A program made the translations under genes and the position numbers. A stretch of DNA of 64,000 nucleotides from contig NC_135220.1 in the NCBI RefSeq assembly GCF_052324685.1, positions 8,901,820 through 8,965,819 on the forward strand, given 5' to 3'. Source of the stretch: Brachyhypopomus gauderio. Taxonomy: Eukaryota > Chordata > Actinopteri > Gymnotiformes > Hypopomidae. The notes beneath the pieces were generated by a model. That model was not told where the DNA came from, made no database searches, and saw only the letters and a list, made by a program, of their open reading frames with translations. Below are positions 1-28,992 of this stretch, in pieces. Numbering within the stretch: position 1 is the stretch's first letter; the number at the start of each line of letters is the position of its first letter.

Positions 1-357
1 CTGCACAGCCCACGTGGGCTTGCATTATTTCTATTATATAACTTTATATAACATATATAAAGTTGAAAAGAACAAATAAATGAAGGTCATGTGAATGCAG
101 GATGTGTGAAGTATTTGGACATTTCTACATAACCCACATATCACAGCTGCAGTATTTCTGGATGCAGTTGTGGGTCAGAACAGCAGAGGTTGCAATAATG
201 TGGGAAGGCTGTAGTGTTCACAAGCGTTGCCAATACACCTATGACATAAATGAGTCACTTCCCTCCTGCCAGACAAGAGCTTTCCAATCACTCCCAGACA
301 GCTTACAGCTCTGTGTCATCTATTAAGGTGTGGGGAATGTTTACTCACTCCATTATA
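1..357. repeat. Outer block of inverted duplication, left copy
   Basis: This block reappears in reverse complement at 28,633-28,992 with very few differences; for example the 74-codon open frame at 102-326 is repeated without change at 28,664-28,888 on the other strand. Similarity runs to the first base of the window, so the duplication must extend further left. It stops near 357, just after a shared CACTCCATTATA. No coding capacity is recognised and the shared open frame looks fortuitous. Confidence 0.9.
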
Positions 358-1459
358 CTCCGAGATATTTTGAAATTATTCATACTACTTACATGAAAAT
401 ACTTACAAAGAGACCTCCGGCCAACCTGTTTCATATATTTAATGATTAAAAGCTGAAACCATCTTCTCTTTGAATAGCTCCCCTGGTACAGCAGGCAGAG
501 CCCAAAAATGACAAGGTCATGGTTCCCAGGAAGTATGTGGACACCATCATGGAGACAAATACATGCAAGTTGCTCTGGATAACAGTATCTACCAAAAGCT
601 GAAAATGTATAATGAAATGAAAATGAACCAGTCGTTTAACGCCACAGTCCTGCTGTACAATCAGACACAATCACTGTTTCTTCACACTGTTTCTTCACAC
701 TTCTTCCCAGGCCACCATGCTGTCATTGCTGCCGTCACCCATATTAATCAATTATTTTGTTCAGATTTTACAGGCTGTAAGAATATTATGTGTGACTTTA
801 CATATACTGCATCAGATCCTGTTCTTTTCCAGTGAAGTGTTGTCTTGAGCAAATATATTTCATACGTATTGAATATGATGGTTTCATGTGGTTTTCATGT
901 GGTTTCAGTTCCTTATTTCAGAGTCAGCACAGAAACGAGTGAGAAATGAATAGAGCTAATCTGGCTTGTTCTTCCCTCATAAAACCAACAGATCAACAAA
1001 AACTACAGAATCCTACATCACTGTGGATATGAGTGTCAGGACGACATTGTTTTGTTTTGGATGACAACTTCATTTTTATATGATATACAGCAGATTCATG
1101 TTCAGAAAGCAATAAAACCATTTACACGAGACTCAGTGGCATATTCACTGTAATATTTGTCTATAATGAAGTCTGACCCTGACTAAGTGAACTTTGAAAT
1201 CATGCCATTCCTTGAGATACAAGGCCGCATGGAGGGGGTTACTTAAAAATTATACTCACACAACCATAGTTATCGGCTTAATTCATTTCAACATGTACAT
1301 TCAAGCCTGCCAGACTGAATAATTGTGTGAATGTAAGTCTGTTCTCACTCCTGTGCTCCCCAGTGGCCAGTGATGCAATGTTTTGGCTCCATATCCTTTC
1401 ATGCAAATTGCCTTATATGATTGAGTGCTACTGGGTGTCAGTAAAACACACATTTATAC
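358..1459. other. Gene-free stretch upstream of gene A
   Basis: I recognise no gene or repeat here. It lies between the two blocks that match the right arm. The corresponding right-arm interval (27,161-28,632) looks unrelated and contains a SINE and a MITE, so one or both arms were rearranged here after duplication. A 90-codon open frame at 563-835 has no recognisable domain and was not called. Confidence 0.5.
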
Positions 1460-1657
1460 CGTATTTTTAAGATCCTTTGATAAGAATGGAAAAGAATGCA
1501 TTGAGGAAAAAAATGAACACACAAAAAAACTGACATCAGTTTTGACTTCAAGGCACATGTAATTAGTGCAGAATTCCAGGTGGTCCTTGTTGTGCACTGG
1601 TAGCACTAGGTAACCGAGGGCTCGTCTAAAGGAGGAACATTCACGGCTGCTGCAGGG

Positions 1658-4600
1658 ATGCCCTGGTCAAGTCTGCTCGTCCTGGCTCTAGCGGTCATGG
1701 TGTGGACCTTCCCGGTACCCAGACCCAGTGATGCTGACGTGAAGTTTGCAAAGGTATGTGACCTAATACACCCAGCATGTATATAAAATTATCACAGCAA
1801 GGCACTAGGGGTAGGGTTAGAGTTAGGGTTAGGGTTAGAGTTAGGGTTAGGGTTAGAGTTAGGGTTAGGGTTAGAGTTAGAGTTAGGGTTAGGTGCACCT
1901 AAACTGAATTCTCTTTTTTTTCCTTCCCTTTCGTATGTCCAGTTTAAAGTGCTTATACTGCCTGTTTTCTTATCAAAACTGGTCAAATTGGAGTTTGATG
2001 ACAGCTGATATAGTGCATGCATGTTTATACGCAAGATTTTAGATGCTGGACTATAAGAATACATAACTGCATTAGTTCTATCTTTCACAAAGAGACTTTA
2101 TAAAACATTATATCAATGCAGTAATTCTATTAAAGTTATTAAGGTTATCTGCATTTGTAAGTTTTAATTTCTTTGAGACCTTGGGTCAGATATGAGAAAT
2201 ATACAGTATCTCCAGAGAATGAATGTAACAAACTCTCAGTATGAACCTGGTTAAAGGTCATGTATAATAAAATTTCATTATTATTTTTGAGATTTAGTAT
2301 TCTAAAAAGTAAACATTACAGTAATAGTACTAGCTTTTTTAACTTCATTTTGTTCAACTTGAAATTTTTCATATGGGAGGTTCCCTTTAAACAATATTGC
2401 TCAAAGGTTAACCCTAACCCTAACCCTAACTCTAATCCTAACCATAAAATAAATAAGCCATCCAAATAATCAAATCATTCCAGCATAAACCAAATCTATT
2501 TCACAAGATGTTTCTGTCACACTACAAAAACATCTGTAATTGACGACATCTATGTGCTGATGAATTTAGAGTAATCATGCTGTGTTGTGCAAACTGTTAG
2601 GAAACAATTTGTGGTTTGCATCATCACTTGGCCGTTCTAATGGTCCATGCAGTTATGTTTGTATATAGTGGCTTACAATTCATAGCACAAGTGGTTAGAA
2701 ACTGATTTGAAACCACTGGAGTACTACATATATACAAGCTGATGCGTTGCAAAAAAATAACACTGGAAAATAATTCTTAATGATACTCACTGTAAAAGAT
2801 TTTGCGAGTACAATAGCAGATGTGGTTCTTAGACAAATTAAGTCTGTCCAGTAGATTTATGTCTGTGTTTTTCCTTACCTGTCATAGCCACCCCCTCCAA
2901 AGTTGTAGCTTGGGGCTAGATTCTGGAATTTTAACAGGAAAAATATAATAAGCAGTCTTTGTCCTAAGGTAAATAATAAAAACGTATAGTAAAGCGGACA
3001 GCTGTCTCACGATGGTAGCAGGTCACGATGGTTTGGAATGAAGTTTAAATGTTTTCTGTTGCCCTAGGCTAGGGCAAAAAGATACACAGCTCTCCTGTTT
3101 TCTTTCCTAGAAGAAATTCTAAAAACACCTAAACCATTTGTTTTAAGTCATGTGAAATTCATTTGCATACTGATTAAAAGTTCATCCAAGCAGCTAAAGT
3201 TGAAATGGTGGATTTGTAAAACCTTAATAATTCATATGATCTCAGGGCTATCTGGAGAAATTTTATGGGTTTAGGCCGTTAGCGGGTCGGCCGAGGCGGC
3301 AGGTGGAGTTCGGTGCCAAAGGCTTCAGAGCCAAAGTGAAGGAGATGCAGAGATTCTTTGGACTGTCTGTGAGTGGCGAGCTGGACCAGCAGACCCTGGC
3401 TGCCATGAGCAGGAGTCGCTGTGGCCTCGCAGACACTGAGCAGTTCGGGGACACTACACGCTGGAGGACCCACAGACTCAGCTACAGGTGAGGCCTGCTA
3501 TACTGGGGCCACGCTGGGGCCACGCTGGGGCCACGTTGGGGCCATTCTGGAGCCAGGCTGGGGCTATTCTGGGGCCATGCATGACCCAAGTGTTTCTGTG
3601 TTCCTCAGTATCTCCAGATATGGCACCAAGATGAAGCCCTCTCAAATCCGTAAAGTGTTCAGAGTAGCATGGAGAATGTGGGCTCGAGCAACACCCTTGA
3701 AATTCAAAAGGACAAGAACAGAGGCAGACATCATGATCTCCTTCAACACCAGAGGTGTGTGTGACAGACATCATGATCTCCTTCAACACCAGAGGTGTGT
3801 GTGACAGACATCATGATCTCCTTCAACACCACAGGTGTGTGTGACAGACATTATGATCTACTTCAACACCACAGGTGTGTGACAGATATCATGATCTCCT
3901 TCAACACCACAGGTGTGTGTGACAGATATCACGATCTCCTTCAACACTACAGATGTGTGTGACAGATATCATGATCTCCGTCTATTAATATCTACCATAA
4001 TTCGCCCTATGTGATGCCATTTTTTGTTTCGTACTTTGTACTTTCGTACAAAACTATTTGCTTCTTGCTCTTTTTTCAAGTACACAATAACATGTTGTAA
4101 ACAAAGCTTGATTTTGTTAATGCTAAATGCAGATCACGAGGATGGTTCTCCATTTGACGGTCCAGGAGGGACACTGGCCCACGCGTTTCTCCCTGGCCCT
4201 CATCTTGGAGGGGACGTGCACTTTGATGCTGAGGAGAACTGGACAAGTACCATCTCAGGTGGCAAAGAAGGGCTGAAATGCCTCTGTACATATCTTACAT
4301 CCTATGATGAAGACAGGAGACTTTTGTAGCGCAGCACCGTGAGCATACATAGCTGATTCATTTTTAAAAGCTTTTAAACTTCATTTTTAAAAACAATATT
4401 TTCTGATCTGACATCTGATGAGACACTGTGACAACACTTGTCTCCAAGGCTATAATCTTGTTGCGGTTGCTGTTCATGAGTTTGGCCACGCCCTTGGACT
4501 CGCTCACTCACCTGACCCTGGGGCAGTTATGTTCCCAGCCTACCAGTTTGACCCCCATACTGATCTGCAGCTGTCCTTCCAGGACGTCCAAGACATCCAA

Positions 4601-5851
4601 CAACTCTATGGTATGTAAGTCGGAGTATAACGCAACATGCTGCTTCATTAAAATCTGATACTGTAGTTGACTACTGCCACAAACCAGATGCTTCTTAAAT
4701 AGGTAAGAGCCCAGTTGAACCTGACAAACCACCTCCGAAAACACCTGATAAATGTGACCCTGAACTTTCATTTGATGCAGTAACAGGATTTCAAGAAGAG
4801 CTCATCTTTTTTAAAGATAGGTAACCTGACCTAAAGACTGTAGCTGTTATGTTTTTTGTACATCAGTTAAGTATTTAAAGAGAAAAATAATGAAACCCTA
4901 AAATGACGATACCCATTGATACAGAATGAAATCGTGTCCATCACAGGTTCATGTGGAGATCCCATCCGACCTTTGAAGAAATAAGGATCACATTGATAAC
5001 AAGCTTGTGGTCTGATATACCAACGTACATGGATGCTGCTTACGAGAACAATGGCACCATTGTCATTTTTAAAGGTGACAATGCCATGGTGCAAGCTGAC
5101 AGTTTTAGAACATTTCTGCCTGCAAGTGTGAGTAAACTGTTGTGTCCATGCATGTGTGTTCTAGACTCTCAGTACTGGGAGGTGAGTGGTCTGGATGTGA
5201 AGGACGGCTTCCCAAGAGACATTTCTGATTTCGGTTTTCCAGACAAGATTAGGTCTGTTGACGCAGCCCTTCATTTTCGGGAAACGCAGGTTACTGTCTT
5301 CTTCACTGGAGAGGAGTGCTGGAGGCAGGTTGTCTAATCTTTCAATACCATAGACCTAGCATGGCTAAAAACCATGTTCTGTTGGTGAGGTTAGAATTTA
5401 TACAGTTTACCAAGCACTGAGCAGCAAATTGTCTGGAGTAACTGTTCCTTCTGCGTTTAGATATGATGAAGAACAGAAGCGAATGACTGATGGTTATCCA
5501 AAAATGATGATGCGTGAGTGGGCCACGGTCCCCTGGCCAGTGGACACAGCAGTAGAGTATCAGGGTAAGTGCTGTACACAGATGTGAAATAAACTCTTCC
5601 ATGCTTTAGAACACTCTCACTTTACTGACATATGAAAGATGGGAAAGGAACTGCATCTGGGAGTTAGAGTAACACATATCAGTTGATTTTGTTGTGTAGG
5701 TCTTGTTTATTTCTTCATTGGGAATCTGCAGCTGGAATTTGACCCTGAACTCCAACGCGTCACAAACACAAGACCTGCAAACACATGGCTGCGGTGTGCA
5801 GACACCCATCATCAACATGGCCATAGGAAACAGCTCCTGGAGTTACTTTGA
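1658..5851 (+). CDS. Gene A: secreted matrix metalloproteinase, MMP1/3/27-like, 10 exons
   Basis: Exons: 1658-1753, 3246-3487, 3609-3754, 4133-4258, 4449-4610, 4703-4820, 4947-5074, 5165-5324, 5461-5564, 5700-5851. They join in frame to 477 residues. Residues 1 to about 20 are a signal peptide ([16 protein letters not shown]). The propeptide has an aberrant cysteine switch, SRCGLAD with Cys91, where the family has PRCGxPD. The catalytic site is [11 protein letters not shown] (His213, Glu214, His217, His223) with Met-turn AVMFP. A Pro/Lys hinge leads to a four-bladed hemopexin-like domain closed by Cys in DKCDPE and LRC. Beyond that Cys is an unusual 17-residue His-rich tail. Intron 8 has a GC donor (AG|GCAGGT). 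The hemopexin part resembles stromelysins and MMP27, yet Tyr, Asp and Gly positions typical of collagenases are kept, so orthology is open (a fish mmp30 or mmp20 type is possible). It would be an extracellular matrix protease. Confidence 0.85.
1807..2446. repeat. Two telomere-like tracts in intron 1 of gene A
   Basis: At 1,807-1,893 there is a run of TTAGGG units mixed with TTAGAG variants. At 2,408-2,446 there is a shorter run in the opposite sense, CCCTAA. Both lie in intron 1. The right arm shows neither: the first falls in a deleted segment and the second is absent from otherwise matching sequence near 26,530. The short open frames over these tracts are meaningless repeats of Leu-Thr or Asn-Pro-Asn. 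Confidence 0.85.
3498..3582. repeat. GC-rich short tandem repeat in intron 2 of gene A
   Basis: Seven or so imperfect copies of an 11-12 bp unit of the form CTGGGGCCACG start just after the exon 2 donor. This leaves intron 2 only 121 bp long and mostly repeat. The matching right-arm segment has been deleted. Confidence 0.75.
3724..3983 (+). repeat. Tandem array grown from the end of exon 3 plus its donor site
   Basis: The last 30 or so bases of exon 3, the splice donor and the GTGTGT after it are repeated about six times with a 38-40 bp period. The first copy is the exon itself; the later ones lie in intron 3 and show scattered changes (TCATGATCTCC to TTATGATCTAC, AGAG to ACAG). Most copies keep AG|GTGTGT, so several decoy donors follow the true one at 3754/3755. 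Using a decoy would add 38-40 bp steps, which mostly shift the frame. Confidence 0.9.
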
Positions 5852-6784
5852 AATCTCCTGAACTGTTGGGTTTTAACAGGGAATGAAACAGAACAGCAGT
5901 GATGCTACAGTTCAGCCGCCGAGATCCTGAATTATTTTTGTCACTGAAAACTCTTTGTGATTGGACATTTTGACACTAACTACCTCATTGCTGTTGTGCG
6001 GTCCAGCTTCTAGAAGTGACAGACAAGATGTGTCCACACAGGACGAGGATGAGGACACAGCATAATCTGAATGTTGAAGAAAGATTACACTTTCTTTAGT
6101 ATCTTCAGGATAGTATCTTAGGAATATTGTACACCGTCAAAGTGTGTCCAGTATTGGTATCATTTGCTGTCGTCTTGGCACCATGATGTCTCACAGGTTG
6201 TAAATCATGTAAATGTGTATGAGTCAGTCCAAAACTGCATAGGTGAGCAGGTTTATTGAAGCACCATGACAACAGCACCAACCACACCTGCTTCCTTAAT
6301 GAAATGAATCACAGATACAATGAAACGTAATGGACAATGTAATGTGTGCATCATTAAAACATCATTGGTCCAAAATATTATTAGAATTAATGCAGTAAAA
6401 GTCCCTCAGTACATTGTGTATGAATCTGATCAAGTGAATTCTCTCTAAACTCCTCATCCATCCATCGGTGCTACACACACTTCGCATTTGGTTCTTGTTC
6501 AGGCATTTTTTAAGTTTCTATCTCCCTCTACTATGATGCCCATACTGGAAAATCAGACATTACTGATATGGCATTTAGGATGTGACACAAAAGTCCTCCT
6601 GTGATTTTTACAAAGACGGTACCGTCTGTTTCTTTACCTGGTCTGCAGATTTTGCTATATGTTGTGTCCCCGCAGTCAGCCTCAGTCAGATATCCCGACC
6701 TTCACTTCATCTCTGGCAAGATGCCGCATTATTTTATTATGGAAACCCACGAAACCACCCACAGGTTCAACGTGTCTTCGATTT

Positions 6785-7700: not shown

Positions 7701-8868
7701 AAGGCACGCTGCCAGGTAGATTGACCTCTGAGAGGCCTGACTGATATATTAGTCATTAGGGCCAGCACTAAGAGGGTGCTAGGGGGAGAATTGCCCCCCT
7801 AAATCAATCCCAAACCTTCCCCCCGGAAACACTCCCACCACCACCCTATTGCACCCCACATACACATTGGCTTTCAAAATATGACGTGTGTCCTTCCATC
7901 ATTAACACAGTCAAAATATGATGTATCACCCCCCCGTCAATACAGTCTATAATGGGGCCTGTTAGTCATACAAAACTTGTTAAATACTTCTGGTGAAATA
8001 ACGCAACGTCATTTATGAAATAGGACATGTAATGAGTCTGTACAGTGGAATGAACTATAACTCATTTACTAAACAAGTGATCATAAAGAAGTGATCCTTT
8101 CCCACCCAGTCAATCCCAGTACTGCTACTTCACTAAATGGAATATTTGTAGGTCGTGCAAATTATAACCTGATGCCTACACAATGTGCAGTATGTGGTTC
8201 TACTGTGTGTTTCAACACATTTTTTAAAACACTGCTTAATATGCTAAATAATCCAAATATGCTTGTCAGAATTATGTATATCATAATATAGAGAACAGGA
8301 AAGTGCAAAGTGTTATCAGGTAAAGTACATTTTAAATCTTTGAGTAACAGGTATTTAAGTCTTCAATGTCCACTTGTTTCTTATCACATACTGGTTAAGA
8401 TGATTCTTAAAATGTACAATCTTGGTCCTAATTGTCCATCGTATCTGTTGTGTTAATACATCACATGCCATGTACTCAACCTCTAGGTCCCTAGTTTTAA
8501 ACTGATCATTGTCATTTATTGTGGTCACTCCTAAATTATGGAACTCACTTCCAAAGTCTGTTTGGGTTGCTCACTGTCACTGTTTCACTTAAAACCCTGT
8601 TACTCATCTGTTCTCTCTGTTATCAGTGATCCACTGTTGTAATATAATTTGTCATGTATATGTTTTCCCTGTCTTCTGTGTTTGGTGTATTCTATCTCTA
8701 TATAAAGAGATGATGATGTTAAATAATGTGTGGTAATGGTTAAATGAAATGTCCATGTCTTGCAGGTTATTTTCAGGGGAATTCACAGTACACAGTCATC
8801 CAAATGTTGTTCCTCATCTTTCATTGCTTTATGATTCATGGTGTTGCTCAATAATTCATCCTTTATGT

Positions 8869-8875
8869 TATAAAA
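8869..8875 (+). promoter_or_regulatory. TATA box of gene B
   Basis: TATAAAA lies 55 bp before the ATG at 8924 and is conserved in the right-arm copy. An AP-1-like TGATTCA (8,832-8,838) lies 31 bp upstream of it. AP-1 next to a TATA box is typical of inducible MMP promoters; activity here is inferred. Confidence 0.65.
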
Positions 8876-8923
8876 ACAAGCAGCTAAACCTACACAGCAT
8901 ACGTGTCTTGTCAGAGAAGAAAC

Positions 8924-11474
<2,551 letters not shown>

Positions 11475-11764
11475 TGACTCACATCTAATTGCCATGCAGG
11501 TAGTGGCATAACAGAACCATACATCTATTAACTTATCCTATTTGTTATCTTATATTATCTATACTACTTATATTATTATTATTTTTTTATCAGTACTCAG
11601 TGTTATCAGAATTATCATCTTATTATTATTCATGTTCATTTGTCTAATTTGCAGTCACTTGCAGTTATTGGTTTTTTTTTATAAATGTTTCCTAATGTTT
11701 CACAACCTAGACCTGCTGTTGTTCTATTAGACACATGTTCAAACATTTAGCAATATTAATAGAA

Positions 11765-11770
11765 AATAAA
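11765..11770 (+). promoter_or_regulatory. Poly(A) signal of gene B
   Basis: AATAAA lies about 290 bp after the stop and is the first consensus signal downstream of it. It falls 250 bp beyond the end of the duplicated arm, so B and B' should use different 3' ends. Confidence 0.5.
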
Positions 11771-11886
11771 GGCAAAGAATACTGTTTTAATATTATGTGT
11801 TATATGTTGTTCTGTGTTGTTCGCTGAATCTGAATCTGTGTAATTTGCACGATTTCATAGTCAAATTGACGGACTTTCCCCTATCC

Positions 11887-11945
11887 CTTTAGGTTTAACC
11901 CTAAACCTAACCCTAACTCTTTAGGGTTAACCCTAACCCTAAACT
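11887..11945. repeat. Telomere-like tract in the spacer
   Basis: Imperfect CCCTAA and TTAGGG units lie in both orientations within 60 bp, close to the inner edge of the left arm and directly before a hAT MITE. Confidence 0.75.
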
Positions 11946-11955
11946 ATTCCATGAT

Positions 11956-12223
11956 CAGGGGTGTAGTGGGGGGGGGGTGTTGCGTGGGGTGTTGTCCCCC
12001 CACTTATTTTAACCAGTGGTGTAGTGGTAGTGTGTAGCTTATTTTAACTGGATGTTGCTCTTGCTGAGACTGTTACGTCAAACGTTAGGTTAATACATGA
12101 TGCGTTAGTAATTTGCCAACTCCTGGCGATCGATCGCCCCCCCCCCCCCCTCAACAATTTAGAATTGCTACACCGCCACACCAAAAACGACCCCCCACTT
12201 ATTTTTTTAGGACTACACCACTG
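11956..12223. mobile_element. hAT-type MITE, 268 bp
   Basis: The ends are inverted (CAGGGGTGTAGTGG and CTACACCACTG) and are flanked by a perfect 8-bp target duplication, TCCATGAT (11,948-11,955 and 12,224-12,231). Eight-base duplications are the mark of the hAT superfamily. Inside is a second, partial set of similar ends and homopolymer C and G runs. There is no coding capacity. Confidence 0.85.
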
Positions 12224-14837
12224 TCCATGATATTCCAGATAGTTTTCCAGAACCAATGGAAACCTGTTGAGTGGAGAGCAGTGGTTTACATTTCCGTGTC
12301 CACAGCATAGGCCTACCGAGTGTTTGTTTCTTTATCATTCCCCTTTCTTTGCATTTTGGTTTCTGGCTTCTTTATGCAAACAAATTCCTGTCAGTGTAAA
12401 CTGAAAAAGTTAACGATAAGGAATACATTCAGTTGTCCAAATATTGACATCTTTATTTTAAAGGAGTAGGCCTATTATTGTTTAAGTAAATGTATGTATG
12501 CCTAATTTATAACTTTCATATTAGTAGTACAAATTCCTACAAGAATTCCAAACATCAGTTTATCAATTTATGTCCATTTATTGTCTAATGGATGTAACTT
12601 TGCCGCACGCATGTATAAAAGCCGCACGGATTTTAGATTTACCCTAGTAGGTTTTATGCGTCCATATGTGTCATTCACATCAAGGCTTGGACATGGCCCA
12701 CCTCTTTCTGAAATGCCCGATATTTCAGAAATCAGCTATTACACCATTTTAATGTGTACTGTGAAAATAATAGTGTTTCACCAACAAGCTTTGGTTACTT
12801 CATTTATTAAATAATGATTTAAATCATAAGAACAGAATCAGAAAACGCTGTCACGCATGTAGGATTTGGTCACTATGCTGAGATAATAAATACGGTGTGA
12901 CTTGCGTAGGAGGCAGGCATGACGAACAAAACAACGGTGCAGCATACAACTTTAATTGACAAATAATGTGAAGCTCTGTGCGGCAGCGCAAGAACTTACA
13001 ACAGACACTTACTCAGGCACAAACTTTAGACAAAGACAAGCACGAGACATTGCGCGAACACACATTAAATAGGTGCTGAACACATTCCTCAGTGATCACG
13101 AGACAAGGCACAGGTGAGACTAACGAACACGCTCACAAACGACCCACACCCACGGAACTATAAACATGAACATACCTGCACGCAGACAACATAACAACAT
13201 GCCAACAAGGAGGGGTCCGGAGCTGTCACCGTGACAGGGGAAAATACATTAAACACGGGCACAGTTACAAACACACACACAGGCACGTTCAACATAAAGG
13301 GCACAAGAGGGAAAGGGGGTTTGGGAGAAACATTGGGATGGACAAACAGACAGGCACAGGCAGCCATGGAATCATTCAGCGTTAGCGGTGGCGCGACCCC
13401 TCCTGGGCTCGCAGGCGAGACAGGCAGCGGAGGCCCTCCGGTCTTCGGGACTGAGCTCCCAGCGTGTGCTGCGCTGCTCGGTGCCCCTGAAGATCGTGCG
13501 CACCGTTGCTTCCCTCGGGGCACTTCAGTCGCCTTTCGAGGCGCTACCGGGGGGCTTGCTTTATGCCGCTCGCTGGCTACTGTCCGCGGCGCCTCCACGG
13601 GTACCCCTAACCCCCACGTCGGGCCACGGTTTGGGCCAACGCCCACTCGCGCTCCCTGGGACAGCGCTGGCTCGCCCCTCGAGGTCTCCATCTCTTCCTC
13701 CTCCTCGGAGCCACCCCGACCTAGAGACATTGGCTCCTCGGTCGTACAGTGTGAACAGTCCATACTGCTCCCCTCCGAGGGGGCACGAGGAATGTCCACT
13801 CCACTCGGGAACCCCTTCTCAGACTGGACTGTCACCTCAGAGTACCCAGAGGCGCTGTCCTCCTCCTCGCTCTCGCTGTTGTGCTCAGAGGGCGGTGTGC
13901 AAACGGACGGAGGGGGACTGACGTCATCCTCCTGCTCACCGTAATACTCGGTGGACTCCGACTATATGGATGGAGTAGGGCTGATTTCTTCTTCCCTGTA
14001 ATACTCAGTAGGGATCGAGTAAACGGATGAAGGGGGGCTGACGTCTTCCTCCTCCTCACTGTAATACTCTGTAGGGGCAGAGTAAACAGAAGGAGGAGGG
14101 CTGATTTCCTCTTCCTCCGCACTGTGGTGCTCGGTGGGGGTCGAGTGGTCGAGCTGGCCTCCTCTTCGCCTTCCCTGTAATACACCGTTGGCACCGAGCA
14201 CAATGACGATGGGGGGCTGACCTCCTCTTCCGATATCCGAGAAGCTGCAGACACGGGGGGAAGCCGCTAGCCTCGCCCTCACTCTCCTCTTCTGAGTACA
14301 CGGAGGGGGGGGGACTCTCCTCCTCTCCGGACTCTCCGCTCTTGAACTCGTACTCGGGGGGGGTCAGGGCAAAGGCACCTGTACCCACCACTATGGGCGC
14401 GCTGGATTCCTCCTCATGGTACGCCAAGGGGATGTCCTCTCTCATAAATGCGTGGTAACCCTCTCTCCACGCCACCTCGAAGAACGGCTCTGCGTCCTTA
14501 TCCCGCACGTTACACCGGGGCAGAGGAAGACGCGTGACGGCGCTTGGCCTTCTTCTTCCCCTTCTTCCCGCGGGACGTGTATCCTGGCATTTTGGTGGCT
14601 CGTCTTTCTGTGATGTGCGGAGGAGGCAGGCACGATGAACTAAACGGTGCAACATACAACTTTAATCAACGAATAATGTGAAGCTCTGTGCGGCAGCGCA
14701 AGCACTTACAACACACACTTACTCAGGCAGGAACTTTACACAAAGACAAGCACGAGACATTGCGCGAACGCACATTAAATAGGTGCTGAACACATTCCCC
14801 AGTGATCACGATATAAGGCACAGGTGAGACTAACGAA

Positions 14838-15823: not shown

Positions 15824-16875
15824 CTAACGAACACGCTCACAAACGACCCACACCCATGGAACTACAAACATGGACATAACTGCATGCAGACAACATAACA
15901 ACACGCCCACAAGGAGGGGTCCGGAGCTGTCACCGTGACATATGGCATAATTTGTATGTATTTGTATGTAATATTTCCAAATCAAATGCTCGTAAACTCA
16001 AACGTCTTGTAAACATGTTTATAAAATTGTTCAATGATCTTGCTTGATTTCTTGAAGGGAACCGAATTTGAGGAGCAGCTCAGGACAAACAAAGCCACGA
16101 CTACCCAAATAGTTTATACAGACTTCTGAATCTGTGGTGTTGATGTCAGCCAGAAAATGAGTTGAAATTGTCCCTTCCCGAAATGTTAACGCCCTTGTAC
16201 ATTACCATCAGACTAACATTTAATGGTCAATGATGGATTAGCTGCTGTTTTATAGCCTACATTTTAGTTCATTTGTGTAGTCGTTATCAAAGTTTGCTTT
16301 ATGTCTGTATGCAGTGATTTAGGCATACCTTTAATGAAAATTTAATCATTCATTTTGAGTTCTGATATAAAAAAAATGAACATCAATTTAATTGAATGTG
16401 CTTTTATTGAAATTATATCCTTAATATGAAATCTTGTAATAATTTGTATTCCAGAGAATGTTTGGAGCCAACATGCTGTGAAAGTGATGAAGTAGGCTAC
16501 ATACATTTACTAAAATAACAATACTCAGGTATTTAAAAGTGAGATGTAAATACAATTGAATGTTGTATTTTTGTGTTGTTTTGTATTTACTAGTTGCAGT
16601 CCTTAAACAATGGTACAGTAGCATTTACATTAATTTGTTTCAATAAAACAGAATCTGCATTTTCTAAAAAGCAAAACAGCCAACATCAAAGGGGAACATG
16701 CGACAAGTGAACTAGGGTGTGGCACGAGGGCGAGGCACGAGGGCGTGACACAGAAACCAAAATACAAAGAAAGTGTAATGAAAAAGAAACAAGCTAAAGT
16801 CGTGCTGCTGACACGCCGTCAGGAGTGATGTCGAGACTCCAACTGTTAAACAGTCACCCAGTCATGGTGACATAG

Positions 16876-17150
16876 GGCAATCATAGTCTGGTGGTTAGGG
16901 ACGTGGTCTTGTTCCCGGAGGGTCGTGGGTTTGATTCCCAGGTCTGAGGCCATGACCGAGTTGCCTTTGGGCAAGTCACCTAACCCCAACTGGGTGCCGG
17001 GCTAGGGCTGCCCACTGCTCTGGGCATGTGTGCACCACAGCTCTCTAGTAATCACTAGTGTGTGTGTTTTCTAATTGCACAGATGGGTAAAATGTGGAGG
17101 ACAAATTTTGATTGCGGTGAAAAATCACAATTGACAAAAATATGGCACAT
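16876..17150 (+). mobile_element. tRNA-derived SINE
   Basis: Same family as 50,096-50,386: the head has GGTGGTTAGGGACGTGG and GGGTTTGATTCCC, and the body has the shared GCCGGGCTAGGGCTGCCCAC. It diverges in the tail, near ATTTTGATTG. Confidence 0.75.
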
Positions 17151-18114
17151 TTACATTTACCCACCTGGGTACTTTTGCTTACTTTTTAATGCCTACTATG
17201 TATTCGGCCCACCATTATATCACATAGCTTGTTCAATAGAAATGACCAAAGCTGTTCACTTCAACATCAGGCTAGCACGAAGGTTTGTCCAAACACATAT
17301 TGCTTTAGTAACTGAGTGAGACTTAAGATTAGCTTCTTTCTTCTAGCCGAAACTGAATAAGTAATGAAAAAATAATGAGCCTGGTATTGAGAGGGCTTAT
17401 TCCCCCCAGACAAAACAAAAACATGCACATGGAGCTCCATGGGAACCCGACACCAGAAAGGGAAACCGTGAGTGTTTCTTAATATTTCATATTTTGAATG
17501 TTTTAAATTTCTTAATATTTCAAATTTCAAATTACACAAATGACGCTTTCTGTGATGCTGGATAGATGACAAAGGCGTTCAGTAAATGAGGCTCGAGCAC
17601 ACACACACAGTCCAGTCCAGGGGTATTCCAAGTCAATTAAAGCAAATTAAATCATGCAACAGTACCAAAGAATCAAAGTATCAAACAAACCAGGTTGAAC
17701 CATAAATCACTAAATATAAACACTCAATATGCTTATCTAGAAAGTGTGGGCAATACTTCACACTGAACACTTGGTGTAGCTAGACTTCTATAGTTCTGTA
17801 TAACGAGAAACAGGTGGTTTAGTAATCAGGAGAGGAGGATCTGTGTCATCTGTGTATAGCCTGCTGGGAAGTGAAGTCTCCGGGGCCAAGGGGCGTGACA
17901 CTTAATATATATGTGAATAACACATAATATACAATACATTATGGGTATTCTTTGGTATTCTGAAAGGCGCTATATAAATTGAACATTTATTTCATTCATT
18001 CATTTATAACACATAATGTGTGCATCACACATTTCATATATTGCATTTATATCTTTTTGATGTAAGTTGAAAGTTTCTGTGCTTTGGCTTATTTAGTACC
18101 TACATTGTCTATTA

Positions 18115-19706
18115 CAGTTTTTGACGACTGCTAACATGCGTTTCCCAATACTTGTGATACATTGTCAAAACTCTAAACACAGCAACACATTGACCTCACA
18201 CAAATAGCCAAATAGTTAATATCGTGTTCAAAAGCGCATTTTCTTAACGAACTAACAACTCTGCATTTCACAACGCAGTTTTCTCTTTATACACCAACTT
18301 TGTTAAAACACAGCAAACCTGGTTCATTATCCAATCATTCTTTCAAACACTAGCACAGATTCTCTATTCGAGATGAACATAGTCAATCACTGTACAACCA
18401 CTGTAAAAAAACTAATATTTGATGGCAGTACAAAAACACCATTACATGTAATATTTTACTCTCTCCCAGCAAACAACAGATATTTTAGAGTAACATTTGT
18501 TGTTTTCTTAGTCAGTTCATTTTTACTGTAATCCGCTTCATTTGGACTTTTTTTTTCAAATGTGTGCATTTTTGGCAACATACTGTCTACACAATGAGTG
18601 ATATTTACTGTTAGGTACTATATGGAATGTAGATTAGACAAAAATGGAGTCAGTAACAGTTTTGCAGTAAAGGTAATATTTTACTGTATTAGGAACATTA
18701 CTGTAAATTGTGGCCTAACCCAAAAAATAATTACCGTAATTGTAAACATAATTAGCCATGGTCCCATATGTGTAAAAATACACATATACAAAAAAGCCAC
18801 ACAAGGGGGAAAAACAGGATACAAAACTGAACAGTCTTGTTATGTGTAATGTAAGTGGTCTTCAGCAGTTGGCCACATGTTTTCATCCTAATTACATCTG
18901 ATGTTGACCCTTGCCATGCACCTGAGATAGAAGAGCTTGGTATGCCTTATTCACCCCTGGCAATCTTCAGCTGAAATGTCTCTGCAGCCAGCATCCATTG
19001 CATCCGGGACATTTGGTCATGGGGCCGATGATCATACACCTTCCACCTCCAGACTGAAAAAAGTTCCTTAGTGGGGTTGAGGAAAGTCGAGATGGGCGGG
19101 AGGAAAAGGGACATCACTCTTGGATGGTCTATAAACCAGTGTGTGACAAATGACAAAATGCTACATTGTCCCATCACAAATGTTCTCGTGTTTCCTCCCA
19201 ACTGTTCCATTTCTGCTTCTGGAACCTGGAATCTGCTTCTGGCATTTGTGAAGGACCAAACCAGAACTTGAGATTGCAGGACTAATTGTTATATTTGCTC
19301 CTCTCTGACCCAGTACATTACTGTATTTCATTTTATTTCATTGATCTATATGTGCAAAAAATGTGAACAACAGTAATAACTTTTCAGCTGCCTTTGTTTT
19401 TGCAGAACTTGGCATTTTATACGATATTTAAGGTTTTGAATCTTAGGTTTTCATTTTTGGCATGCTGTGTACAAGCAATTGTAAATAAGACAAAAACTAT
19501 CCAGAATTTTGTTATTGGATAACGTTGTGTGTATAGAAAATGTAAGCATTATAAAAACATATAAAATGACTGCATTTTGTGCCATAACAACATGAATTGA
19601 ACTAATAGTATAGCCACTGAAGACTGATGTTGTGTTCAATGTGTTTAGAGTTTTGAAAGTGTGACTACAGATTGGACAAACGCACGTTAGCAGTCGTCAA
19701 AAACTG
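18115..19706 (-). mobile_element. IS630/Tc1/mariner-type DNA transposon, 1.6 kb
   Basis: Terminal inverted repeats of about 29 bp start CAGTTTTTGACGACTGC, with one mismatch between the ends, and are flanked by TA on both sides (18,113-18,114; 19,707-19,708). On the minus strand a frame at 18,947-19,210 reads LPPISTFLNPTKELFSVWRW, the end of a DDE transposase of the IS630 superfamily (usual form LPPYSPFLNPIEEFFSAWRW). The rest of the transposase is decayed. The right end lies only 202 bp from the inner edge of the right duplication arm. A second, partial copy is at 61,012-61,409. Confidence 0.8.
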
Positions 19707-19948: not shown

Positions 19949-22398
19949 CTAACACGGCAAAAAATAGCTGTTGTTCAGCACCCGCATTAGTCTTTGACCA
20001 TCAGAGGTGAATTCAAACATGCGTGGTCCACTGAACAGGTAGATGAAACCTGGAAACAGAAAACAGTGGGAAGTGTCAGAATGAGAAAGTGACTAGATAA
20101 TTTTAATCCAGTGATATATCTGAGATTATCTAAAATTGTATTCATTAAATACTAACCACGGTATTGTAAAGCTGCAGTGATTTTTGCTGTCATTCCTGGG
20201 AATCCCTCTTCTACCGGTTTAGGGTAACCCTTGTCCATCTTCTTATTTCTGTGGTCATAGCTACAATTTGAGAAAATGTTTTGTTAGAAACATGATTTAA
20301 AATGTATAACTATCTGAATATTTCATCCATTTTTTGTGTTTGTTTATCTTGATATATTTCATAACCTACCTGTAGTATAATTTGCCAACAAAGAACAAAG
20401 TTTTGCCCGTATCAGAGTTATAAAGCGCAGCCGTGATCTTCTTGACATTAGGGGGCAGGCTTACACTTCTGAGGCTCTTGGGATAGCCCTGTGCAATGTT
20501 ATAACCATCTACAGCCCATATCTTCTGACCTGAGGTTTGTGGTAACAAATCCATACAAATATTTAATGCCATTCGCAGATAGAGACTGTGCACTCTATAT
20601 ATCATTTCAGTAAAAGTGTGGATTCCTGTTTGGTTGGTGCACGTACCTTTAAAGAGGTACACTGTATCTTCTGATGGATCCTCGTAAGCTGCATCTATGT
20701 TATTTGGGGCGTCAGGCCAGAAGCTCGTGATCAGATGTTGCTCAGTCTCAGGACTCAGTGGGCCACGGCGCCAGAACAAGCTGAACAACACAGTTCAGTA
20801 TGAGATGACTTAGAGAACTTCTGAGATTAGAAACCTTAAGGTGACTTCTTTCAAGATTCTTTTGGGGGAGCTTACTTTTTCTTGAAGAACATCATCTCCC
20901 CTCGCAGTAAAGTAACTGCATCCAGCACCAGCTTAGGGTCACAGGCATCAGGGGTGACCGGGTGGATAGCAGGGTCAACGGAGTCAGGATTTGGTCCTGT
21001 TGAATACATTTTCCCTCATTAAATGCATATTGGACAGGACTTACATTGTTACATGGCAGGCAATACAATAATTGGCTTCTGATTCATACAGCCTACCATA
21101 GAGAGCCTGAATTCCATTGACATCATCTTGGGGCAGAATGAAATTATTCCTGTAGCTGTATATTGGATGCATCAGAGCACCAGGATCTTTAGAATGGTCA
21201 AGGCCCAGTGCATGTCCAAATTCATGGGCAGCGACCAGGAACAAGTTGTATCCTGCAACAGACGTATATAATGTGACATTGTGTGCTGTTTATCATGTGT
21301 GATATCACAAGGCATGAGATTCAGGCTCAGCTAAATGTTGCCATTCTAACCTTGAGGGGATGAGAAAGTAAAGGTCTCATCATCATCAAAATGGGTATCT
21401 CCACCAATGCCAGGACTGGGGAAAAAGGCATGAGCCAAGAAGCCATTGGGTCCATCAAATGGGTAACCATCACCATGATCTGATAAAAAAGAAACCATGG
21501 AAGTATTTTAAAAGACCACAAAAGCCGTGATATATTTGATATATTTTGTACTAAGGCTTTCCATTTTCAAATCTACCCTATGAAGAAGATGTGAGATGTT
21601 TTGTGGTACCCCAAAGAGAACATCTCTCAGGAAGCAGTACTAATGTCACTTTCTACAGTCAACACTAAAATGAGGATGACTAGATGAAGCAGGAGCCTCA
21701 CCTCTCACACCGAAGGAGATCATGATGTCGGCTGTGCCACTGTAGATGCGGGTGAACTTCAGAGGAGTAACATGGGCCCAGACCTGCAGCGCTCTCTGGA
21801 TGGAATCATCCACTTCAGCCTGAGTCATGTCAGGAGTGTAGTTCTCAATCCTGTGGTGTGGGTAGAGGGCCCAAAGCTTAAAGCTTAACTTACTGAACAT
21901 GTTTGACTCTGTCTGTAAGCAGTAAGTAAGAGCAGAAGGTAAAACCCGTTCATGTACCTGTAAGTCAGCTGGTTCGAAGGCCATTTGTACTGCCCAGGAG
22001 ACAAGACGTATGCAGCCACGTCTGGAACTGCACAGCGGGGCTGTGTCATCACTTCCAACGTCTCCCTGTCCAGAACTCCTGTCACGTTCAGCTTGAAAAA
22101 CTCCTGCATCTCGCTGAGCTTCTGACTCATCTCACTGACACTGCGCCCATAGGGCGTCTTTTTCTCCTCTTTCAGGTCATACAGTTTCTCCAGATATGTC
22201 TGGTAAAACGGGCATCATTTACAGTTAGACACCTGAACTGAATATCGGCTCTACAAAACAATGTTAAGATGCAGAGTGGAATGTCATCCTTACCTTTGCC
22301 AAAATCTCCTCATCCTCGCCAATAGGTGCTGGTACTGGACCAGTGTGAACACTGATCATCAGGCCAATTAAAATGCAAAGCTGGTAGTAAACCTTCAT
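19949..22398 (-). CDS. mmp13-like: Gene B': inverted MMP13-like copy, 10 exons
   Basis: Exons in transcript order: 22398-22294, 22199-21958, 21850-21702, 21479-21351, 21252-21097, 20996-20876, 20780-20647, 20529-20370, 20260-20157, 20049-19949. Every exon has the same length as in B, giving 466 residues with no interruption. Differences from B are few: Val to Met in the signal peptide, KKMPYRR to KKTPYGR and FFR to FFK in the propeptide, [12 protein letters not shown] to [12 protein letters not shown] at the active site, YRK to YRN, and EDI to EDT in the hemopexin domain. The Asp after GL is the residue of human MMP13. The switch is PRCAVPD, shared with B. Exon 2 ends with the usual AG|GTAC donor, unlike B. 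B and B' face each other tail to tail. Both look functional. Confidence 0.9.
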
Positions 22399-22446: not shown

Positions 22447-22453
22447 TTTTATA
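22447..22453 (-). promoter_or_regulatory. TATA box of gene B'
   Basis: TATAAAA on the minus strand, 55 bp before the ATG at 22,398, mirrors the gene B promoter. The upstream AP-1-like TGATTCA is also present (near 22,484-22,490). Confidence 0.6.
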
Positions 22454-22617
22454 ACATAAAGGATGAATTATTGAGCAATACCATGAATCATAAAGCAATC
22501 AAAGATGAGGAAGAACATTTGGATGACTGTGTACTGTGAATTCCCCTGAAAATAACCTGCAGAACATGGATAACACATTCAACCATTACCACATATTATT
22601 TTATATCTTTCTCTCTA

Positions 22618-22730: not shown

Positions 22731-23951
22731 TGATATATTGATATAGATTAAGAACTCACTAAACTGATAACAGAGAGAACAGATGAGTAACAGGGTTTTA
22801 AGTGAAACAGTGACAGTGAGCATCCCAAACAGACTTTGGAAGTGAGTTCCATAATTTAGGAGTGACCACAATAAATGACTGACCACCCACAGTAGTCAGG
22901 TTAACATTCCTCTAGTGTAACAGTTCTGGCCGACCCGTTTGTAGGTTTTAAATGCATGAAAGTACTACACACATTTGTTTATTGCTGCAACAATAAACAT
23001 AAAATAAATGTAGTTTTAAAATTAAATTATAATATGCTCTTGTTAAAATAATTACATTTCTGTTGTTAGGGTCAGTTTTGACCCAGGTGTAATTAGAAAA
23101 CTATAATAATTGTAATAATAATTGCCAAAACTAAAATCATAAACACACTATATACCAACTGGCCACAGAAGCTCTTCTTCCAGATGATTTTCAGTTAGGA
23201 GCTTCTGTCTTTGCCTTTTTCACAAAACAAGCAAAGCCATACATTTCCATTTGTTTTTATGGTATCTAATGGCTGATTTGAGTCACAGGTAAAAACCGAC
23301 CCGTTAAGAGATAGTAACAGAAAACCAACACAAGAGGAAATTTGGAATTTGGATTCAGCATGTGAAAACTTATTTTCAATGGGAAATAATCTTATGTGAC
23401 TTCAAATATCTTCCTTTTCCTGGAGAAGTTGTATTGGAACTGATTGGATGGGAAAGGATCTTTCAGACATAATGTACAGAAGAAATGTTATTGTATTATT
23501 TAATTCTAATAAAATTTTTGACCAGTAGTCATCCGCTGTGTTTTTACTTTGTGTTTTATTGTCCATTAGTTTCCTGTTCCACTTATTTGTGTTTCATTTC
23601 ATGGAGGAAGTTTGTGGTTTTTGTTAATCTTACGAAATGCTGTTGTTGCAGGTGCTTCAATTAGCCTGTGCTAATACAAGTTTGAACTGGCTCATACCCA
23701 GAAGTACTTGATCTACAGACTGATTATATGAAAGTTAAAATGAGATGTAGTTAGTAAGGAAACTGTAATCTTATATTTCTTCAACATCCAGATTGTGAAG
23801 TGTGGCGAGATCTGGAAGAGTAGAGACCAGAGAATGTGGACACATCCGCCCGAATAGCCATGAGGCAATTAGTGTCAAAATGTCCAATTACAAATGTTTT
23901 TAATGACAAAATGAAAAACTTCCCTGTTAAGACCCAACACTTCAGGAGATT

Positions 23952-25750
23952 TCAAAGTAACTCCAGGAGCTGTTTCCTATGGCCATGTTGATGACGGGTG
24001 TCTGCACACCGCAGCCATGTGTTTGCAGGTCTTGTGTTTGTGACGCGTTGGAGTTCAGGGTCGAATTCCAGCTGCAGATTCCCAATGAAGAAATAAACAA
24101 GACCTACACAACAAAATCAACTCCCAATTACTCCAACTCCCAGATGCACTTCCTTTTCCTTTCTTCATATGTCAGTAAAGTGAGAGTGTTCTAAAGCATG
24201 GAAGAGTTTATTTCACATCTGTGTACAGCACTTACCCTGATACTCTACTGCTGTGTCCACTGGCCAGGGGACCGTGGCCCACTCACGCATCATCATTTTT
24301 GGATAACCATCAGTCATTCGCTTCTGTTCTTCATCATATCTAAACGCAGAAGGAACAGTTATTCCAGACAATTTGCTGCTCAGTGCTTGGTAAACTGTAT
24401 AAATTCCAACCTCACCAAACCTGGTTTTTGAAATGTGCCATATTTTTAGCCATGCTATGTCTATGGTATTGAAAGATTAAACAACCTGCCTCCAGCACTC
24501 CTCTCCAGTGAAGAAGACAGTAACCTGCGTTTCCAGAAAATGAAGGGCTGCGTCAACAGACCTAATCTTGTCTGGAAAGCCGAATTCGGAAATGTCCTTT
24601 GGGAAGACGTCCTTCACATCCAGACCACTCACCTCCCAGTACTGAGAGTCTGGAGCACACATGCATGGACACAACAGTTTACTCACACTTGCAGGCAGAA
24701 ATGTTCTAAAACTGTCAGCTTGCACCATGGCATCGTCACCTTTAAAAATGACAATGGTGCCATTGTTCTCGTAAGCAGCATCCATGTACGTTGGTATATC
24801 AGACCACAAGCTTGTTATCAATGTGATACTTATTTCTTCAAAGGTTGGATGGGTTCTCCACATGAACCTGTGATGGACACGATTTCATTCTGTATCAATG
24901 GGTATCGTCATTTTAGGGTTTCATTATTTTTCTCTTTAAATACTTAACTGATGTACAAAAAACATAACAGCTACAGTCTTTAGGTCAGGTTACCTATCTT
25001 TAAAAAAGATGAGCTCTTCTTGAAATCCTGTTACTGCATCAAATGAAAGTTCAGGGTCACATTTATCAGGTGTTTTCGGAGGTGGTTTGTCAGGTTCAAC
25101 TGGGCTCTTACCTATTTAAGAAGCATCTGGTTTGTGGCAGTAGTCAACTACAGTATCAGATTTTAATGAATCAGCATGTTGCGTTATACTCCGACTTATG
25201 TACCAGTTGTTGGATGTCTTGGACATCCTGGAAGGACAGCTGCAGATCAGTATGGGGGTCAAACTGGTAGGCTGGGAACATAACTGCCCCAGGGTCAGGT
25301 GAATGAGCGAGTCCAAGGGCGTGGCCAAACTCATGAACAGCAACCGCAACAAGATTATAGCCTTGGAGACAAGTGTTGTCACAGTGTCTCATCAGACGTC
25401 AGATCAGAAAATATTGTTTTTAAAAATGAAGTTTAAAAACTTTTAAAAATGAATCAGCTATGTATGCTCACGGTGCTGCGCTACAAAAGTCTCCTGTCTT
25501 CACCATAGGTTGTAAGATATGTACAGAGGAATTTCAGCCCTTCTTTGCCACCTGAGATGGTACTTGTCCAGTTCTCCTCAGCATCAAAGTGCACGTCCCC
25601 TCCAAGATGAGGGACAGGGAGAAACGCGTGGGCCAGTGTCCCTCCTGGACCGTCAAATGGAGAACCATCCTCGTGATCTGCCTTTAGCATTAACAGGATA
25701 TTCAAGGCTAATTGCATTGCATTGTGTGTCCCCTATTTTTCCAGATATCC
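23952..25750 (-). pseudogene. Gene A': inverted copy of gene A lacking its 5' exons
   Basis: Exons 4-10 are recognisable in transcript order: 25677-25552, 25361-25204, 25111-24994, 24867-24740, 24649-24490, 24339-24236, 24103-23952. Exon 1 (signal peptide) is missing. Of exon 2 only about 15 bp survive (ending at 25,750, GGATATCTGG after an intact acceptor), and exon 3 is gone, so the propeptide, cysteine switch and first third of the catalytic domain are lost. Exon 5 has a 4-bp loss at its 3' end (CAACTCTATG to CAACTG), which shifts the frame into exon 6 and alters the donor. Exons 7-10 are still open, keep [11 protein letters not shown] upstream of them, the GC donor of intron 8 and the His-rich tail (with one His to Arg). 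It is almost surely a pseudogene. Confidence 0.85.
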
Positions 25751-27205
25751 CTGAGATCACATGAGTTATTAAGATTTTACAAACCCAACGTTTAAACTTT
25801 GTTGCTTGGATGAACTTTCACCAGTATGCATAAATTGATTTCTTATAACAGTTAAAAAAAATCTTCTCAAAAGGAAAATCCATTCAGAGGAAGAGCTGTG
25901 TGGATTTTTACCCTAGACTAGGGCAACAGTCTGAAAACATTTAAACTTCATTCCAGATATTCTGCTACCAGATATTCTGCTCTTTTTATTATGCTTCTCA
26001 TTCTCCAGACTGTGTATTATATTTTTACTGTTAAAATGCCAGAATCAGCCTTGAGCTACAACTTGGAGGGGCTTGCTAGGACAGGAAATAGGAAAAACAC
26101 ACATACCTCTGCGGGACAAGCTTCATTTTTCTCACAACCACTTCTGCTCCTGCATTTGCAAAATCTCTTTTACAGTGCCACACAAACCACAAATTGTTTC
26201 CTAACAGTTTGCACAACACAGTATGATTAAGCCACACTGACCAGCAAATAGATGTCATCAAGGCCTGATGTGAAATATTCTTTTGTAGTGCAACAGAAAC
26301 AGCTTGTGAACCAGATTTGTTTTATGTTGGAATGATTTGCTAACATTTCAGAGATTACATGCATGGTTTAATTATTTATTTGTGGTATAATAATTATTTC
26401 ATTATTGTGATCTTAAACTCCTGTGTATTTACTTGACTAAATTTAATGGACCTTGAATAAAGGGTGTGTTGCATATTTATTGATTCTACATGTTACTAGA
26501 GTAATGAAAGTAATGAAATAATTATCATCTAAAGGGAACTTCTAATTAAAATTATTACACGTAACCTCCCATCTGAAATTTTTCAACCTGAAAAAGATGA
26601 AATGAAGGAATGCTAACATGTTTACTTCTCAGAGCCCTTATCACAGTTGCCCCACCCCAGTTGCCCCGCCCCAGTTGCCCCGCCCCAGCTCCTTTGTCCC
26701 TGTGACTTCCTGTCTCGTGGCTTTGTTTTGCTTCCTGGTTTTCTTGCATGTGCTTGTATGCACATGTATCTGCCTTGTGATCGCTCCACACTACAGCTCT
26801 AAAAGAATTCTGCAGTTTAATTGTACTTCATGAGAAGTTTGGCCTTCATCTGTTCCTACTGAGAGTTTGTTGCATTCATTCTCTTTCTCTGGTCTATTGA
26901 TAAAATCTGATCCAAGATCACAAAGGAATGAAAACTTGCAATTACACCCTTAATAAAGATAATTGATAATTGATTTTTTTTTGTTTTGATAATGTTTTAC
27001 CAACACTCTTTGTGAAATAAAAAAAGAATGTAATAATGAGAATAAGGGTCACCTGGAAATTATATGTGCCTTTAAGTCAAAACTGATGACAGTTTTGTGT
27101 GTGTGGTCTTTTTTCTTGATGCATTCTTTTCCATTCTTATCAAATGATCTTCAGAATATAATATAATTGTGTGATTTACTCATATTCAGCAATATCCATT
27201 GCAAC

Positions 27206-27640
27206 AGTGTCTTGGTGGTTAGCACATTTGCCTCTCAGCACTGTCTTGGGTTCAAGTCCCTATCTGAGTGGAGTTTCCATGCTCTCCTCGTGTATGTGTG
27301 GTTTCCCTCTAGGGTCTCTTGATTTACTCTCTCAGTCCAAAAACATAGAGGTTAGGTAAATTGGCAGTCCCTGACAATTTCTCACTGAATGTGTGAGTAT
27401 GTGTCTCTTCATGTCCAATAAAAACAGTGTCTGTGCAGGAATGTGTCTCCCCTTCCTGCACCCCATTCAGTCCCCCAGGGGGCTGTGGATCCTGGTAGAG
27501 AGGACGCTGTGTGTGATTGGCTGTTGCTTCTCCACGGTGTGTGATCGGTTGTATAAGACTTGTACCTGTGTTAAAATTGTAAAGGTGCAAAATAAATTGA
27601 AGATTCATTTATTAGTTCAGTACTTCTCCTCCAGTGGAAT
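27206..27640 (+). mobile_element. tRNA-like SINE and a second fish repeat
   Basis: 27,206-27,400 has a tRNA-like head (CTTGGTGGTTAGCACATTTG, GGGTTCAAGTCCC) and a body with AAAACATAGAGGTTAGGTAA, as in fish V-SINE-type repeats. 27,440-27,570 (CCCATTCAGTCCCCCAGGGG and following) matches the reverse complement of 54,190-54,260. Neither is in the left arm, so they arrived on this side or the left lost them. Confidence 0.6.
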
Positions 27641-28164
27641 TCTACATAACAACCTGATGTGTCTTTCCGCTTCCAGCACGGCTCTGTTCTCTTGTGATTG
27701 AAGCTGCTAGGAACTGTATCAGGGCACCGCTCTTCTGACACACTCCCATTAATGTGTTGATATAGGTGGCTTCAGGATGTGTGTGTGGGAGGAGAAATTT
27801 CCCACATGCTCATGACTAGTTTCTTTAATTGATCACTATAGCCGTGTGAGGTTTGAAAATAGCGTCTGACAGGCCAGTGAGGACATTCAGGCTGGATAAA
27901 AGCAAAATCTTGTGGGCACATTCATCAGAGCCCCCTGACCACTATTCTCATTAAATGTTATTACAGCCATTTAAATATACTACACTACTGACATGCTCAA
28001 ACTCACTTCATTTAAATATACTACACTACTGACATGCTGCAACTCCCTTCAGATTTCTCATTCTTCCTGAGTTCTCAGATAACATGACTCTCAAACGAAA
28101 GGTTTCACCAGTTGTAACAAACAAGGAAATGGTCTTGTTTTCTGGTTAAAGGCAACAAATACAG

Positions 28165-28553
28165 TACAGTACAGGCCAAATGTTTGGACACGCCTTCTGT
28201 GTTTTCCTTATTTTCATGACTCTATATTTACATTGTAGATTCTCACTAAAGGCACCAGAACTATGAATGAACACATGTGGAGTTATGTAACAAAAAAGGT
28301 GAAATAACTGAAAACATGTTTTATATTCTAGTTTCTTCAAAATAGCCACCCTTTGCTCTGATTACTGCTTTGCACACTCTTGACATTCTTTCAATGAGCG
28401 ATTGAGAGACCCTGATAAGGCAAACCTGAAGTGAGAGAATTCCATAAGTGTTTTGATGCCTTCAGTGAATCTACAATGTAAATTGTCATGAAAATAAAGA
28501 AAATGCATTGAATGAGAAGGTGTGTCCAAACTTTTGGCCTGTAGCCTACTGTA
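28165..28553. mobile_element. Tc1-like MITE, about 390 bp
   Basis: Inverted ends of the form CAGTACAGGCCAAATGTTTG and, on the other side, CAAACTTTTGGCCTGTAGCC are set in TA-rich flanks. The interior resembles a common fish non-autonomous Tc1-like family and encodes nothing. It separates the two matching blocks of the right arm. Confidence 0.65.
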
Positions 28554-28632
28554 TATTCCATTTTATGTAAGAAATATGAACAAATCAGAAATGTCTGAAC
28601 AAATCAGAAATGTCTCAGAAATGTCTAAGGCT

Positions 28633-28992
28633 TATAATGGAGTGAGTAAACATTCCCCACACCTTAATAGATGACACAGAGCTGTAAGCTGTCTGGGAGT
28701 GATTGGAAAGCTCTTGTCTGGCAGGAGGGAAGTGACTCATTTATGTCATAGGTGTATTGGCAACGCTTGTGAACACTACAGCCTTCCCACATTATTGCAA
28801 CCTCTGCTGTTCTGACCCACAACTGCATCCAGAAATACTGCAGCTGTGATATGTGGGTTATGTAGAAATGTCCAAACACTTCACACATCCTGAATTCACA
28901 TGACCTTCATTTATTTGTTCTTTTCAACTTTATATATGTTATATAAAGTTATATAATAAAAGAAATAATGCAAGCACACGTGGGCTGTGCAG
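28633..28992. repeat. Outer block of inverted duplication, right copy
   Basis: Reverse complement of 1-357, differing by a few bases and a small insertion in the TATATAA-rich part. It ends in the window at CACACGTGGGCTGTGCAG, which pairs with the very first bases of the window, so the true outer edge of the duplication is not seen here. Confidence 0.9.

Follow-up and report, generated by a model that had tools for sequence, protein, structure and literature searches.

The window, a stretch of 64,000 nucleotides from Brachyhypopomus gauderio, was examined together with 40 kb on either side (144 kb of a single genome), and it lies on a contig of 25.3 Mb in an assembly of 796.5 Mb and 840 contigs, which was covered by the genome searches. 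Ten units of matrix metalloproteinase (MMP) genes span about 89 kb, and are from left to right A, B, B' and A' (the latter two in reverse orientation), C, D, E, F, G and H (Table 1). The sole run of N within the 144 kb is found at 73501-76000, outside the inverted duplication formed by the first four units and with none in its arms or spacer. Genome searches with 20000-22000, exon 3 and 1-400 as queries found no near-identical copy beyond the cluster. Upstream of the window the list of open reading frames shows a leucine-rich-repeat-like frame at -8568 to -7384 (L012), apparently tsukushi-like, a serpin-like frame at -13241 to -12498 (L011), apparently serpinh1-like, and a transposase-like frame at -26919 to -26149 (L010), presumably of the Tc1 type. 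Elsewhere in the assembly two matrixin matches of equal score are located on a large and a small contig (G000:C14:7168260-7168844 and G000:C91:443861-444445), and this pair is possibly a haplotype copy of another MMP.

Table 1. Features of the MMP cluster, in window numbering; negative positions precede the first base of the window.
Feature	Position	Strand	Remarks
MMP gene A	1658..5851	+	10 exons, 477 codons + stop; exon model, splice sites, Pfam
MMP gene B, collagenase type	8924..11474	+	10 exons, 466 codons; exon model, Pfam, structure matches
MMP gene B'	19949..22398	-	10 exons, 466 codons; tail to tail with B
A' remnant, exons 4-10	23920..25695	-	4-bp deletion in exon 5
Spacer, repeat-rich	11759..19706	.	
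Diverged outer right arm	25735..29781	.	relics of A intron 1 and upstream sequence, T1 partner inside
Tract T1, outer low-divergence, left arm	1..360, on to -195	.	partner 28630-29198
Tract T2 (A exons 4-10 and introns)	4115..5883	.	partner 23920-25695
Tract T3 (B promoter and whole gene)	8721..11527	.	partner 19896-22601
Exon-3 island in B	9466..9614	+	6 intron bases and first 143 bases of exon 3
Exon-3 island in B'	21708..21856	-	148/149 positions agree with C
MMP gene C	37487..40099	+	10 exons; exon 3 at 38048-38196
MMP gene D	47109..49588	+	10 exons; exon 3 at 47651-47799
MMP gene E	58173..60774	+	10 exons; exon 3 at 58730-58878
MMP fragment F, exons 3-5	64145-64306 and 65532-66081		

The predicted products of A and B both pass the Pfam cut-offs for PF01471 (PG_binding_1, propeptide-type), PF00413 (matrixin) and PF00045 (hemopexin), and with the propeptide, catalytic and hemopexin domains all present the two genes are, by their predicted domains, matrix metalloproteinases. 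The solved relatives that score best for both are interstitial collagenase and collagenase 3. Hallmarks of MMPs are the zinc-binding motif HExxHxxGxxH and the cysteine switch; the former is present in A, B, B', C, D and E, and the latter reads PRCAVPD in B and B', PRCGVPD in C-E and SRCGLAD in A, the last deviating from the consensus. The model of A is complete, with a single GC splice donor following exon 8. At 3725-3979 a 40-bp unit is repeated 6.4 times; the repeat extends over the last part of A exon 3 together with the splice donor of this exon, which is thereby multiplied.

All 10 exons have equal lengths in B and B', with 14 differences between the two genes in 1401 coding bases and 9 in the residues. 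The original prediction, made from the letters of the window, had a duplicated pair of intact genes in which B and B' keep equal exon lengths and differ at about seven residues; the exon lengths and the intactness of B and B' hold, the residue count was too low, and A' is a broken copy. Exons 1 and 3 are missing from A', as is almost the whole of exon 2, and the 4-bp deletion shifts the frame of exon 5. On the right arm no match was obtained for exon 1 or exon 2 of A, and A exon 3 matches there over only 18 bases, inside exon 3 of B'. That arm does retain relics of intron 1 of A, and the last relic block holds about 16 bases of exon 2.

The analysis confirms the inverted duplication, which is old. 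With the flanks added its homology extends from -1493, paired with 29781, inwards to 11758 and 19707, giving a left arm of about 13.3 kb (1.5 kb of which precedes the window), a right arm of 10.1 kb and a spacer of about 8 kb; since the homology continues past base 1, this base is the edge of the window and not the end of the arm. The inverted identity is 98.6% at the inner end (722 aligned columns), 98.1% in B (1996 columns), 96.2% in A (1784 columns) and 98.3% at the first bases of the window (360 columns). A global alignment of the arms puts unrelated stretches at about 40%, and such bins are background. BLAST-type matches thus place the inverted homology where it had been predicted, with introns and flanks alike as well as exons, and the high-identity inner ends (11527 and 19896) agree with the predicted spacer of 8.4 kb; the duplication itself stands, and is larger than predicted (arms of about 7-11 kb). 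A repeat of the spacer, at about 14835-15500, has matches of 94-99% at 38 further genomic places among 40 candidates scored. The insertions differ between the two arms.

The likeness of the arms, taken in the original prediction to be arm-wide, is patchy, with three near-identical tracts (T1-T3, Table 1) between and beside which relic blocks are only 78-89% identical. Because near-identity does not extend over the whole arms, the locus is classed as a patchily converted inverted duplication and not as a maintained palindrome. Mismatches number 15 in 556 aligned bases of T1, 44 in 1758 of T2 (exons 15/949, non-coding 29/809), and 36 in 1995 and 8 in 706 in the two pieces of T3, where 30 of 1300 non-coding bases differ and a difference of 91 bp, as given by the match borders, interrupts the tract at 10716-10806. 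Pooled, the three collinear tracts have 104 mismatches in 5132 bases, or 2.0% (75/2782 in non-coding bases), as against 300 in 1763, or 17%, in the nine alignable relic blocks, the remainder being lost or unalignable. The K2P distances are 0.009-0.027 in five tract pieces and 0.12-0.27 in the nine blocks, and p-values for the contrast of pooled mismatches are overstated because the tract borders were chosen by identity. The patchwork holds in collinear position and includes non-coding DNA and a pseudogene, A' matching A about as closely as B' matches B. The left edge of T2 coincides with the A' deletion and that of T3 lies at a (CA)n array of the right arm.

The relic blocks are BLAST matches, some trimmed by hand and one (6230-6440) picked by eye, with unalignable stretches excluded. 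Each of the nine outscores all of 500 random draws from outside the arms, and when draws were allowed inside the locus 2 of 193 reached block 6230-6440 and none reached the other eight. T1 was also considered as a mobile or dispersed repeat, which is ruled out, as 1-400 matches only two places in the genome, both of them the arm copies.

To the right of the duplication, C, D, E and F form a direct array. In E the dS to C is 0.32-0.74 for exons 6-8 and 0-0.13 for the other exons, and exons 6-8 of E are, judged from these values, of other descent than those of C and D; with the rest alike, this indicates that segments would have been exchanged within the C-F array too. The reading frame of F is broken in exon 5, and its exon 3 is not followed by GT but is still 97% like that of B'; the right-hand side of F can be read only as far as the N run. 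A 31-bp unit repeated 40.9 times with 96% matches is located between D and E (55527-56795).

Exon 3 of B, B', C, D and E and of the broken copy F is 95-99% identical. The common tract is 149 bp, with borders at most 6 bp from the exon edges, and is found in both orientations. A genome search with B exon 3 finds seven places, every one in the cluster, namely B itself, B', C and E (99%), F (97%), D (95%) and G (81%). The 149 bases of B' exon 3 share 148 with B, 144 with C, 143 with E, 141 with F and 138 with D, and further 117 with G, 86 with H and 64 with A, while in the 30 bases flanking the exon on either side B' shares 9-14 with C, D, E and F. The six matching intron bases are part of a splice-site motif and may match through constraint. 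Over the other exons pooled the dS from B' is 1.44 to C, 1.27 to D and 1.34 to E, whereas over a 144-base piece of exon 3 it is 0.03 to C and E, 0.07 to D, 0.10 to F and 0.31 to G, and not computable for H. Synonymous change is thus nearly absent in exon 3 and only there. In the four of the seven tested pairs that join B or B' to C, D or E, the most identical segment is exon 3, extended in the spliced frame by 5 bases of exon 2, and none of 2000 shuffles is as high; for the remaining pairs this segment is exons 2-5 in C-E and exons 1-5 in D-E (0/2000 each), and C-D gives 28/2000. Exon 3 is thereby a bounded tract of near-zero synonymous divergence with diverged genes around it, as is expected of interlocus conversion. 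Exon 9, with a dS of 0.33-0.38 from B' to C, D and E, is also below most exons, a possible older exchange event.

In trees of exons 3 and 4 the forks are mostly weak, and the only firm one (99/99) is the exon-3 group of seven genes, B, B', C, D, E, F and G; because of the weak forks the divergences were relied on and not the topologies. The signs of GC-biased conversion are weak in the tracts as well as in exon 3: the GC content is 36.9% in non-coding tracts and 32.6% in relics, and GC3 of exon 3 is 0.62-0.66 in B-E, yet 0.71 in the unconverted H.

Divergences of 2% and 17%, both in collinear and largely non-coding DNA, are impossible for sequences of equal age without exchange, and replacement in place fits. 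The locus is very probably an old inverted duplication with patchy gene conversion from arm to arm, to which the same process limited to exon 3 is added, as judged from the sequence pattern. The pair A-B would have been duplicated long ago in inverted orientation, after which substitutions, insertions and deletions would have separated the arms and A' would have lost its first exons. Gene conversion, the non-reciprocal copying in recombinational repair, would have kept overwriting wherever long enough similarity remained, leaving three near-identical tracts whose edges fall on or close to insertions, deletions or diverged stretches. Confined to one exon, this process would also keep exon 3 alike in B, B', C, D, E and F. 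Conversion as the mechanism, its recurrence, and loss of homology as what sets the tract edges are what we infer from this pattern, and the predicted intrachromosomal conversion is supported in that low-divergence tracts lie within the same arms as strongly diverged relics.

The main alternative of the original prediction was an inverted haplotype copy, that is, an assembly error in which the other allele was placed backwards as the second arm. The tracts are only about 2% apart, and such a value lies within the allelic divergence of some animals, but within these arms the relic segments diverge by 11-22%, which is not allele-level arm-wide, A' has lost exons and decayed, the arms carry different insertions and are free of N runs together with the spacer, and the sequence at 1-400 has just two copies in the assembly. 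As the exon 3 common to C-F is also left unexplained, this alternative misfits the locus and is the most improbable of those considered. Selective constraint, which would preserve tracts and exon 3 without any copying, is scarcely more credible. The catalytic domain begins in exon 3 (the Pfam matrixin match begins at residue 107 of B), but the introns and the broken A' are equally similar, and fragment F, with its splice donor gone, has kept the likeness. Moreover, in four MMP genes on other contigs, taken from L017-L021 with the first gene of L018 and the gene of L020 left out, the synonymous sites of exon 3 have passed saturation or are close to it, with a dS from B' of 1.15, 1.86, 2.04 and not computable, and the dN is 0.32-0.43 for exon 3 against 0.19-0.29 for exon 4; since these copies change faster in the exon 3 protein, the exon is not specially constrained.

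Unequal crossing over, or the repeated duplication of segments, could also have made a mosaic, and is unlikely, if less so than the two preceding explanations. In a direct array such as C-F exons can be mixed, and the deviating exons 6-8 of E are what would be expected. The three tracts of the arms, however, are in mirror position within diverged flanks, which requires replacement in situ; one crossover between opposite orientations would leave the intervening stretch inverted, and a double crossover is formally the same as conversion. Arm-to-arm conversion with a smaller counterpart at exon 3 is thus the preferred reading, and we tentatively add that exon 3 might be a self-sustaining conversion island, overwritten repeatedly in both orientations while the other exons escaped, because it would be the sole block in which B-type and C-type genes remain similar enough for recombination.

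The process is of a known kind, and the locus is unusually legible. Sex-chromosome palindromes are kept alike through arm-to-arm gene conversion (PMC6790999, PMC3403216), and they share with this locus gene-bearing inverted arms that are homogenised between each other, but here only patches are homogenised and the relics in between are diverged by 11-22%. Mammalian BMP8A and BMP8B, one of several pairs reported in concerted evolution (PMC2720389), are an inverted pair, parts of which, introns included, are more than 97% identical while other parts diverge, as in the MMP arms; the BMP8 genes are about 235 kb apart, unlike those arms, and the screen required two consecutive exons with their intron, whereas here a single exon is shared beyond the pair. 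The LWS opsins of livebearing fishes (PMC3087554) likewise have tail-to-tail copies in a tandem family of fish, with conversion proposed; the gene family is another one, and the passages of that paper at hand contain no exon-bounded island across saturated genes. Mmp13, likewise an MMP of collagenase type, is reported as duplicated in all non-salmonid teleosts studied (PMC12649390); the present locus has ten units within about 89 kb; in the accessible part of that account 'tandem' does not occur, and 'conversion' occurs once, meaning turning into pseudogenes. Among the literature matches listed there is no study of gene conversion in MMPs, and as the coverage is thin for subscription journals this does not imply absence. 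According to a review, conversion between duplicates persists until substitutions, transposable elements or other large indels disrupt the pairing (PMC3924837), and the tract borders found here look like such disruption.

Locked and escaped blocks are thus found side by side in one inverted duplication. The exon-sized conversion island across the cluster goes beyond what was originally predicted; it suggests that some 150 bp of sequence remain able to exchange between genes whose synonymous sites are saturated elsewhere. If exon 3 is indeed such a self-sustaining island, the layers of dS from B', with C and E nearest, then D, F and G, would be successive rounds of overwriting, and the tracts of the palindrome would be the same process in longer blocks. 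A tree of these MMPs based on exon 3 would misgroup the genes.
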